Below are positions 13,399 through 16,607 of a stretch of 64,000 bases of DNA, piece by piece. The DNA is from Oligoflexales bacterium (GTDB taxonomy: Bacteria; Bdellovibrionota_B; Oligoflexia; Oligoflexales; RGVZ01), in the NCBI GenBank assembly GCA_947445775.1, contig CANFEB010000005.1, positions 36,465 through 100,464 of the forward strand. The letters run 5' to 3'. Each line of letters starts with the position of its first letter. Within the stretch, counting starts at the first letter, position 1. The translations under genes were made by a program, and so were the position numbers. The notes beneath the pieces are model-generated. The model searched no databases. It was not told where the DNA came from and worked only from the letters and a program-made list of their open reading frames with translations.

Positions 13399-13830
13399 AT
13401 GGAACCATCATCGGATTTGTCAGTTGAATTGCCCGACGACCAGAAACAGAAGTCGCGGTTGGTCTGGATTGCCGCAGCTTTGGTAGCCGGATTGGCGACG
13501 TTGTATGTGGGGCGCTATCTCTTGGTGCAATTCACTCAGGGACGAACCCAGCAGGGTGAGTCAGGTGACGAGTTTTTGATCGACGGTTTTGAAAAGGGAG
13601 TGTTTCGCCAAATTCAATTGGGCGATTACCCGCAAATTCTAGTCGAAGACAGCGAAGGTAAATTAAACGCCTACGCTTGTTCGGACGGCTGCCCACCACT
13701 TGATCAAAATCCAGATTTGTACCTGAACCAGCAAGTTCGGGTTTTCTTGCGCAGTCAGTCGACTCCAGGGAGCGACGATCCTGTAGACAACGATATCAAG
13801 GTTGTTGTTCGCGTTGAGCTAGTGCCTTGA
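13399..13830 (+). CDS. Hypothetical single-TM protein
   Basis: MEPSSDLSVELPDDQKQKSRLVWIAAALVAGLATLYVGRYLL. Confidence 0.65.
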   Translation: MEPSSDLSVELPDDQKQKSRLVWIAAALVAGLATLYVGRYLLVQFTQGRTQQGESGDEFLIDGFEKGVFRQIQLGDYPQILVEDSEGKLNAYACSDGCPPLDQNPDLYLNQQVRVFLRSQSTPGSDDPVDNDIKVVVRVELVP

Positions 13831-14296
13831 GGGCTTCTAGCGCTTCAACCGCTTCAACCGCTTTTATATTTTGAACCAAGATTCCTTGATAAATCTGCCA
13901 AGCACGCAGCCAAGATAGTCGCTGGCGTTCCTGAGGCAAGCGGCCAAGCCATTCCGGCAGGGTGGCCAGACGCAAGGGCCGGCTTGGGTCGGCAGGAATG
14001 ATGCCGGTGGGTTTAAGGTTTTCGGATTGAACAACGTAAAGAGTCGCCGGAATTTTCGATTCCAGCATCACAATATCCTCAAAATCTGGACAGACTTGAT
14101 AGCCCGCCGGCTCCAAGGCGAATCCGAGGCGACTCCTGATCATATCCGCAATTTGTGGCAGGATCGGCATGAGCGGCTGCACCTGCAAATGCAGGCCGGC
14201 CCATGGCCCAGGATCAGATGGAAACATCCACAGTCCGTTGCCGCCATCCAATGGCACCAGGATCAGCGCACGATCCGTTTTGCAGTTCACTAACAT
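13796..14296 (-). CDS. Hypothetical protein encoded downstream of MglA-like GTPase
   Basis: ORF immediately after and co-oriented with 14314-14895; no confident family. Confidence 0.6.
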   Translation of the reverse strand: MLVNCKTDRALILVPLDGGNGLWMFPSDPGPWAGLHLQVQPLMPILPQIADMIRSRLGFALEPAGYQVCPDFEDIVMLESKIPATLYVVQSENLKPTGIIPADPSRPLRLATLPEWLGRLPQERQRLSWLRAWQIYQGILVQNIKAVEAVEALEALKALAQREQQP

Positions 14297-14313
14297 TCGC
14301 GATCCTCCTGGTT

Positions 14314-14895
14314 TCAGATGGACAAGGTTTTGATGATCTGTCGGGCGACCGACTGTAACGTCTCAAGGGTGCCGACGGAGCGGGTCGCAATGGCCTCGTG
14401 ATCCGGGAAGCCACCTGAATTTAGTTCTTCGCGGAGGACATCAACGGGCATGATGTCGTCCATGTCGCGTTTGTTATATTGAATGACTCGTGGGGTTTCG
14501 CTGATGCTGTAGCCGTGATCAGCGAGAAGGCGGCGCACATGAGTCATGGATTCAATGTTGTCTGCCATGGCTTCAATCCGCGAATCGGCGACGAAGACAA
14601 AGGCATCAAGCCCTTTCATCAAGGTATGCTGAAGGGTTTCGTAAAGGGTGTGCACCGGCATCGTATAAAGGTGCAGCTTCACATGGAAGTCTTTGACCTT
14701 GCCCAGGCTTACCGGCAGAAAATCAAAAAACGGAGTCGGCCCGGCATTGCCGGACATATCGACCATTCCGGCCTTCATTTCACCTGCTGTGCTGGTATAG
14801 ACCGACTTTAGATTTAAGGTTTTTCCGGCCGACTGGGGTCCGAAATAGATCACCTTGCAGTGGATTTCGCGGGTTTCAAAGTTGGTAAAGGCCAT
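14314..14895 (-). CDS. MglA-like small GTPase (catalytic residues altered)
   Basis: Gap-free colinearity with recalled M. xanthus MglA: REIHCKVIYFGPQSAGKT, FFDFLPVSLG, VFVADS, IQYNKRD. Confidence 0.9.
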   Translation of the reverse strand: MAFTNFETREIHCKVIYFGPQSAGKTLNLKSVYTSTAGEMKAGMVDMSGNAGPTPFFDFLPVSLGKVKDFHVKLHLYTMPVHTLYETLQHTLMKGLDAFVFVADSRIEAMADNIESMTHVRRLLADHGYSISETPRVIQYNKRDMDDIMPVDVLREELNSGGFPDHEAIATRSVGTLETLQSVARQIIKTLSI

Positions 14896-14918: not shown

Positions 14919-16607
14919 TCAGTCAATGTTCTTGATACGAACATTTTCCACTTTTCCGCCGAAAACTTCCAGAACATCACGGGTTGTCTGATGGTTTACG
15001 GCAGCCTGACGCAAGGCGTCGTGGCGTTGTAGCGTTTCACGTTCGCTTTTTTGGGCCAGGGACTCCGGTGGGGATGCCGCAGCGGTGGTATCGGCAATGG
15101 CTGTGAAATTTGTCTGGGGCTGGGCTTTTTCAATGACGATTCGACCCTGAAAGCCAAAAAGGTCTGAGAATGACTGCTTCAGTCTGGCTTGCTCGTCCGG
15201 GTTTAGCAGGCAGCGGGCAAAAGACGATTCCAGCACGGTCAGAGAAATCAATTCTGGACTGTAAACATGAGGATGAGCATCTTCAAGTTTGCCGGCTTGG
15301 AGGGGACGGTGATGGCGCCAGATAGCGACTAGATCATGCCATGTCGCCGGAAAGACTTTGATTTTTTTGGCTGTCTCCGATGCAACCGGCGCTGAAGCAA
15401 CGAGCACTTGAGCGGCGGGTGATTGAGCAACGGGTGCGGCCATTGGCTGTGCAGGGACTTGGGTGGTTTGGACGAGTTGGGCCGTTTGGCGGAGTTGTTG
15501 GAGATCCGGCAGCCCCGGGTCCAGGCACCACTCAAAAGCGTAGTTTTCAAGAATGCAACGGTCCAGCGGGCTGCCGTCAAGATCTTGCCGGCAGCGAACG
15601 AGAGTCCTGAAAATTCGGTTTAAATCAAAATTGGCGGCAGACTTGCCGATCTTTTCCAGTTCCTGAAGTTCGCCCGCATCCAGATCAAGCTGCGCGAGGT
15701 CCAAGGCGTCGCATCCCAAGTCACGGATGACAAAAGTGTGGCGCGTGAGTTGGGCTAAATCTTCAACGACGCTCATTAAATCAGTGCCGGTTTGCTCAAT
15801 CTGGTCGATGGTTGCCACCAAAAGTTTGGAGTCTTTGGCGACCAATGCGCGAAGCAGGGTTGTGATCAGTTCCCTGGGTGCCTGGGCCGTGATGCCTTCG
15901 CACAATGCAGCGGTCAGCTTGCCATTGCTGATGGCGATGGCCTGGTCAAGGAGGGTTAGCGCATCCCGCATGGACCCGCGGGCTTCACGTGCAATTGGCC
16001 GCAAAGATCCAGGCTCGTGAGGAATCCCCTCAAGGCGCAGGATTTCTTCAAGGCGAGACACCACGGTTGCTGAGGTCATTTTCTGCAGCAAGAAAACCTG
16101 GCAGCGCGACAAAATCGTCTGGGGGATTTTCTGCAATTCCGTCGTGGCGAACAAGAAAACCACGTGCGCCGGAGGTTCTTCCAGCGTCTTGAGGAGCGCA
16201 TTGAAGGCGCTCTGCGACAGCATGTGAACTTCGTCGATTAGATAAATTTTATATTTCGAGCGTTGTGGGACATAACCGATGGAATCGCGCAACAACCGGA
16301 CGTCATCAACGCTCGTGTTCGATGCTCCGTCAATTTCCAGGACATCTTCATGATTGCCGGCGGAGATGGCATGGCAGCTTTCGCATTCTCCACATGGTGA
16401 AGGCGTCGGACCTGACTCGCAGTTTAGAGCCTTGGCGTAGAGGCGAGCTGTGGTGGTCTTACCCACCCCGCGGACCCCGGAAAATATGACCGCTTGCGGA
16501 GTCCTACCCATACGGATGGCGTTGGCCAGTGCCTGGGCTGTCGTGTCTTGTCCGACCAATTGATTAAAAGTTTGGGGGCGATATTTTCGGGCAAGTGGCT
16601 GAGTCAC
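14919..16607 (-). CDS. dnaX: DNA polymerase III subunit gamma/tau
   Basis: LARKYRPQTFNQLVGQ, FSGVRGVGKTTTARLYAKALNC, LIDEVHMLSQSAFNALLKTLEEPP. Confidence 0.97.
   Translation of the reverse strand: MTQPLARKYRPQTFNQLVGQDTTAQALANAIRMGRTPQAVIFSGVRGVGKTTTARLYAKALNCESGPTPSPCGECESCHAISAGNHEDVLEIDGASNTSVDDVRLLRDSIGYVPQRSKYKIYLIDEVHMLSQSAFNALLKTLEEPPAHVVFLFATTELQKIPQTILSRCQVFLLQKMTSATVVSRLEEILRLEGIPHEPGSLRPIAREARGSMRDALTLLDQAIAISNGKLTAALCEGITAQAPRELITTLLRALVAKDSKLLVATIDQIEQTGTDLMSVVEDLAQLTRHTFVIRDLGCDALDLAQLDLDAGELQELEKIGKSAANFDLNRIFRTLVRCRQDLDGSPLDRCILENYAFEWCLDPGLPDLQQLRQTAQLVQTTQVPAQPMAAPVAQSPAAQVLVASAPVASETAKKIKVFPATWHDLVAIWRHHRPLQAGKLEDAHPHVYSPELISLTVLESSFARCLLNPDEQARLKQSFSDLFGFQGRIVIEKAQPQTNFTAIADTTAAASPPESLAQKSERETLQRHDALRQAAVNHQTTRDVLEVFGGKVENVRIKNID

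Follow-up and report, generated by a model that had tools for sequence, protein, structure and literature searches.

The window, a stretch of 64,000 nucleotides (C5:36465-100464) from a 2.48-Mb genome in 60 contigs that is 90% complete, carries an mglA-like gene flanked by dnaX and by a gene that we call P0002 (Table 1). Nothing else lies between dnaX and mglA, and dnaX is also found near canonical mglA genes in other lineages. The arrangement of mglA and P0002 suggests that the two genes share one transcript.

Table 1. Positions of the genes, motifs and spacer at the mglA locus in the window
Feature	Position	Strand	Evidence
mglA-like gene, 193 aa; MglA GTPase of Ras-like fold, catalytic residues degenerate	14314..14895	-	phmmer, AlphaFold, PDB fold match
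P-loop GPQSAGKT, residues 19-26; G21 replaced by Q	14818..14841	-	alignment
Switch I and β2, PTPFFDFLP, residues 53-61; P in place of the intrinsic Arg finger R53, T54 retained	14713..14739	-	alignment
G3/switch II, TMPVH, residues 78-82 (canonical TVPGQ); G81V and Q82H	14650..14664	-	alignment
G4 guanine-specificity motif NKRD, residues 141-144, intact	14464..14475	-	alignment
P0002, 166 aa; Nudix-like fold predicted, Nudix box absent; candidate partner	13796..14296	-	iterative HMM, AlphaFold, Foldseek
mglA-P0002 gap, 17 bases, with Shine-Dalgarno-like AGGAGG	14297..14313	-	sequence
dnaX (DNA polymerase III γ/τ); synteny anchor	14919..16607	-	23 bases upstream of mglA

The protein and Myxococcus xanthus MglA (PDB 6hjh; phmmer, E=1.4e-53) align over residues 1-190 of each, with no gaps, and residues 2-189 of the protein align to Thermus MglA (3t12; E=6.3e-45). 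The top 14 Foldseek matches are all MglA. The motifs expected of the family are present: the G1 P-loop GxxxxGK[ST] as GPQSAGKT, the G3 start T78/P80 (TxP, versus DxxG in Ras) as TMP at residues 78-80, and the G4 motif NKxD as NKRD. The protein itself has no informative match in Pfam or NCBIfam, and 13 of 21 orthologues match Arf in Pfam (best E 2.7e-07).

The ungapped alignment bears out the initial annotation, in which the equivalents of G21, R53, G81 and Q82 read Q, P, V and H and in which G19/G24-K25-T26, T54, FFDFLP and NKRD are retained. The sequences around the replaced sites are GPTPFFDFLP (R53P) and LYTMPVH (G81V and Q82H). The combination of R53 with a TVPGQ motif containing Q82, which marks active Group 1 MglAs, is replaced by P53, V81 and H82. 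The retained T54 is the equivalent of Ras T35, the sensor of Mg and the γ-phosphate.

A search of the whole genome with an MglA query gives one match, the gene in the window. Two PF00025 matches (L001 and L002) fall within ORFs of 1013 and 442 aa that the MglA query misses, and they are likely to be other GTPases. The gene had been described as a paralogue of a canonical MglA, which is not borne out: no other MglA was found in the genome, and the gene occupies a dnaX-linked site common to other lineages. A second canonical MglA and an MglB were looked for in this genome as well, and neither was found (PF03259 over the cut-off for MglB). The nearest named protein (89% identical) belongs to a MAG record labelled Pseudobacteriovorax antillogorgiicola, a genus placed by the NCBI taxonomy in Oligoflexales, Oligoflexia, Bdellovibrionota. 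The window gene is best explained as a vertically inherited orthologue, the only MglA of an Oligoflexales bacterium (a Pseudobacteriovorax-like MAG). Class-level and phylum-level searches cover the same 58 genomes, 50 of which have an MglA match, at one place each. The 8 genomes with no match (G002, G003, G004, G008, G015, G018, G043 and G055) include some at least 90% complete, so that a few species may really have lost the gene.

The catalytic residues are lost throughout the order. Two genomes of the same genus have A21, P53, V81 and H82. Among 31 non-redundant Oligoflexales MglAs, neither G21 nor G81 occurs, Q82 occurs once and R53 is nowhere convincing; an arginine at position 53 of L028 in one alignment is gone on realignment. 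Neither chance nor an error in sequencing accounts for a loss that the congeners and the 31 sequences share. In 44 Oligoflexales rows, some of them redundant, position 21 is R, K, A, S, P, N, T or others, position 81 is T, A, V, L, E or others, and position 82 is mostly N or H; P-loop GK(T/S) and NKxD are almost invariant in the order. In the MglA encoded at L008:1468-2109 (G001:C120), part of switch II is duplicated in tandem and in frame (LYLFTLPLNSLYLFTLPLNSLFV).

R53, T54, G81 and Q82 are kept in 150 of 150 canonical rows, which come from sister Bdellovibrionota and from other phyla. These rows, some redundant, comprise the M. xanthus reference, 74 genome-contig rows (drawn from the best-scoring 80 and therefore biased to conserved sequences), five control loci and 70 rows from sister Bdellovibrionota, six low-scoring MglAs of that phylum (G065, G090, G092, G097, G139 and G243) having been left out. 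Position 21 is the only one of the four replaced sites that varies in the canonical set, being other than G in 11 of the 70 Bdellovibrionota rows (10 S, 1 A). Across a non-redundant set of 118 canonical sequences, 65 columns hardly vary, and among these columns G81, R53, Q82 and T54 are some of the most variable in the 31 Oligoflexales sequences. G19, G24, K25, N141, K142, D144, K14, P61, D97, D104, S105 and Q139 stay invariant or nearly so in the same 31, as does the F57/F59/P61 strand, which moves on GTP binding, whereas T54 is T in 13. As judged from the aligned sequences, the decay is selective rather than general. The degeneration takes a different pattern in the aligned Silvanigrellales, the sister group of the order (11 rows, L138-L148), in which R53 is kept in 9, T54, G81 and Q82 are lost in all 11, and NHxD replaces NKxD in all 11. 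In the distant Oligoflexales sequences L136 (G032:C162), L137 (G019:C78, a fragment at a contig end) and L133 (G035:C271), the P-loop is apparently changed or lost.

The mglA dN/dS between the window and the two congeners is 0.03-0.04, at a saturated dS of 1.6-1.8, and that between the two congeners is 0.01 at a dS of 0.44. Values of about 0.01-0.04 indicate that the gene is not a pseudogene, and together with the independent MAGs they rule out a sequencing error. In a quick tree, a branch of length 0.69 (SH-aLRT support 99%) has all canonical MglAs on the same side, and the Oligoflexales MglAs form no single resolved clade and have long branches.

No two-protein MglA/MglB module, with MglB adjacent or unlinked, was detected in the class, as none of the 58 genomes gives a Roadblock/MglB (PF03259) match over the cut-off. 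In a control with seven genomes, PF03259 matches Myxococcus and three others, while two Bacteriovoracaceae genomes, whose operon runs dnaX, ybaB-like, recR-like, a 180-aa ORF at the MglB position and mglA, fall below the cut-off. A very divergent MglB could therefore escape the search, since the profile misses even that of the Bacteriovoracaceae.

In most Oligoflexales loci, mglA adjoins a member of the P0002 family by iterative HMM search. The neighbor is not detected at Oligoflexales loci L025, L032, L035, L133 and L135, and no family member is found near mglA in the canonical and Silvanigrellales loci searched. An AlphaFold model of P0002 built from 8 sequences (pLDDT 79.8, pTM 0.74) has nearly all its best Foldseek matches in the PDB among Nudix proteins (E about 2e-4), with TM scores of 0.44-0.56 by query and up to 0.67 by target (1kt9). 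P0002 may have the fold of Nudix hydrolases, but inspection of 23 aligned members reveals no Nudix box (GX5EX7REUXEEXGU), no P0002 sequence matches a Nudix family in Pfam, and the search against PDB sequences, Nudix chains included, returns only a chance ribosomal protein (E=0.97). The P0002 of the window has no Pfam match; the lone Pfam hit in the family, to a toxin C2 domain in one of the 23 members (E=3e-4), was taken as chance. The idea of P0002 as a divergent MglB finds no support, since the top fold matches are Nudix, not Roadblock. The only invariant columns in the 23 sequences are R126, A132 and Q134. R126 and Q134 share a predicted helix, in which their role may be structural. The dN/dS of P0002 is 0.06-0.09. 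P0002 is a candidate for a dedicated partner of MglA, a role suggested by gene adjacency. At L132:2147-2694 (G012:C388), the P0002 homologue is split over two overlapping frames and contains an ambiguous base, perhaps because the assembly is wrong here or the gene is broken.

The AlphaFold model of the window MglA has a pLDDT of 84, with switch I low. Its closest PDB structure is 6izw_A, MglA-GTPγS with MglB (rmsd 1.7, TM 0.93), and the GDP forms of M. xanthus MglA deviate more (rmsd 2.4-2.6). This resemblance is a weak indication of a GTP-like state, as the input alignment held many canonical MglAs and the model stands without a canonical control.

Type IV pili are the probable context of this MglA. 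PilM is found over the cut-off in 57 of the 58 genomes, some having only weaker, partial matches in longer ORFs, and it also occurs in related genomes in which mglA was not found. The phylogenetic profile of mglA against PilM is uninformative, PilM being nearly everywhere. In M. xanthus, the GTP-locked MglA-Q82A still allows pili to form, shifted toward both poles (PMC7519303); several MglA changes including one at Q82 left no detectable protein in one study (PMC3000849), whereas Q82A is treated as GTP-locked and pilus-competent in the other. The TPR effector gene SgmX/Bd2492 lies next to tamB in other lineages (PMC3983030, PMC7519303). No gene of this type is recognizable by eye beside tamB in the window genome, where the upstream gene looks ATPase-like, not TPR, and a link of MglA to pili through an SgmX-type effector is hypothetical. 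At L236:9238-10614 and L237:10468-11505, the SgmX/Bd2492 position beside tamB is occupied by an ATPase-like gene, with a receiver-type-like ORF in addition at L237.

We consider it most probable, at roughly 0.6, that the Oligoflexales MglA is a nucleotide-binding, non-cycling protein serving as a constant platform, and that the switch function was lost in the lineage. The protein would still fold and bind a guanine nucleotide via the P-loop and NKRD. GTP hydrolysis by MglA's own mechanism would be gone, because R53, Q82 and the site-shaping G21 and G81 are lost and no MglB GAP is detectable. MglA would then be constantly set and nucleotide-loaded for its polar partners, probably in connection with type IV pili, and P0002, with its predicted Nudix-like fold, could take over regulation as a dedicated partner. 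The initial annotation had called the protein non-hydrolysing or constitutively GTP-bound. The first half, limited to MglA's own mechanism, is well supported by the lineage-wide loss, maintained under selection, with the binding motifs kept; the second is possible. A scaffold loaded with GDP or with either nucleotide fits as well, since T54, though kept here, is missing from more than half of the relatives, a loss that also speaks against strict GTP-locking in the order as a whole.

A less probable reading, though one to be taken seriously, overlaps with the constant platform as a sub-case of it: MglA would be a pseudo-GTPase in which bound GDP or GTP is purely structural, a static scaffold rather than a protein in the "on" state. 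The low frequency of T54 in Oligoflexales, its absence from the Silvanigrellales and the uniform NHxD of the latter are in line with such a role, as is the loss of the P-loop lysine or of the entire P-loop in the distant members L133 and L136. Against it, the window protein and the families closest to it retain T54, GKT and NKRD, and there is hardly any variation in the strand that shifts when GTP binds.

Hydrolysis might instead continue with catalytic residues supplied in trans, by R126 and Q134 of P0002 or by another GAP. TBC-type RabGAPs supply both Arg and Gln in this manner. The invariance of R126, A132 and Q134, the adjacency of the two genes in most loci, and the retention of R53 in most Silvanigrellales, where no P0002 was detected near mglA, would all fit. 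However, the five Oligoflexales loci at which no P0002 was detected lack R53 too, many lineages that do carry P0002 have lost T54 and G81, R126 and Q134 share a helix in which they may be structural, and the R126/Q134 pattern was noticed post hoc. We regard this alternative as improbable. A decaying gene or an assembly artefact is very improbable indeed: the missing matches in 8 genomes and the further degeneration of distant members are outweighed by the low dN/dS, open frames in 11 families and the independent MAGs.

Returning to the non-cycling platform, a bolder form of it is rather doubtful. The lone polarity GTPase would have become such a platform while a recruited, non-catalytic Nudix-fold protein, P0002, replaced the MglB GAP, so that a pseudo-GTPase/pseudo-Nudix pair would set polarity; in the strongest form, P0002 would give Arg and Gln in trans.

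The usual view is that small GTPases act by cycling. The Oligoflexales have as their sole MglA a protein without the catalytic residues, the rest of which is under strong selection, in genomes in which no MglB was found and pilM is present. This MglA makes it testable whether front-rear polarity needs a GTP cycle or merely a nucleotide-loaded MglA, and the undescribed conserved gene P0002 comes up as a candidate partner. Our literature search found no paper describing the MglA of Oligoflexales or Silvanigrellales.

Compared with the Group 1 MglAs of M. xanthus and Thermus, the window protein is alike in fold, ungapped alignment, GKT, T78/P80, FFDFLP, NKRD and the nearby dnaX, but it is without R53, G81, Q82 and G21, no MglB is detected, and the unrelated-looking P0002 follows. 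The arginine is conserved in all Group 1 MglAs of the set examined (Wuichet 2014, PMC4316618). SofG, an orphan MglA homologue of M. xanthus whose hydrolysis is not aided by MglB, keeps this arginine, which is important for its GTPase activity (PMC4316618), whereas it is lost here. Among eukaryotic proteins, Rnd1/Rnd3 (RhoE) and the pseudo-GTPase domains of p190RhoGAP have small-GTPase folds that do not hydrolyse GTP, and the Rnd proteins are constitutively GTP-bound and act via partners (PMC3690454, PMC10211241). Those proteins belong to the Rho family, whereas the present one is a bacterial MglA whose degenerate form is the only one in nearly an entire lineage. The MglA of Bdellovibrio bacteriovorus (Bd3734) is a milder published precedent: it has S21 and no MglB and has been suggested to be permanently GTP-bound (Milner 2014, PMC3983030). 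The window protein is likewise a lone MglA in which residue 21 is not glycine. However, the sampled Bdellovibrionota sequences with S21 keep R53, G81 and Q82, while the window protein has lost all four residues, extending the Bdellovibrio case from one substitution to the loss of the whole catalytic set.
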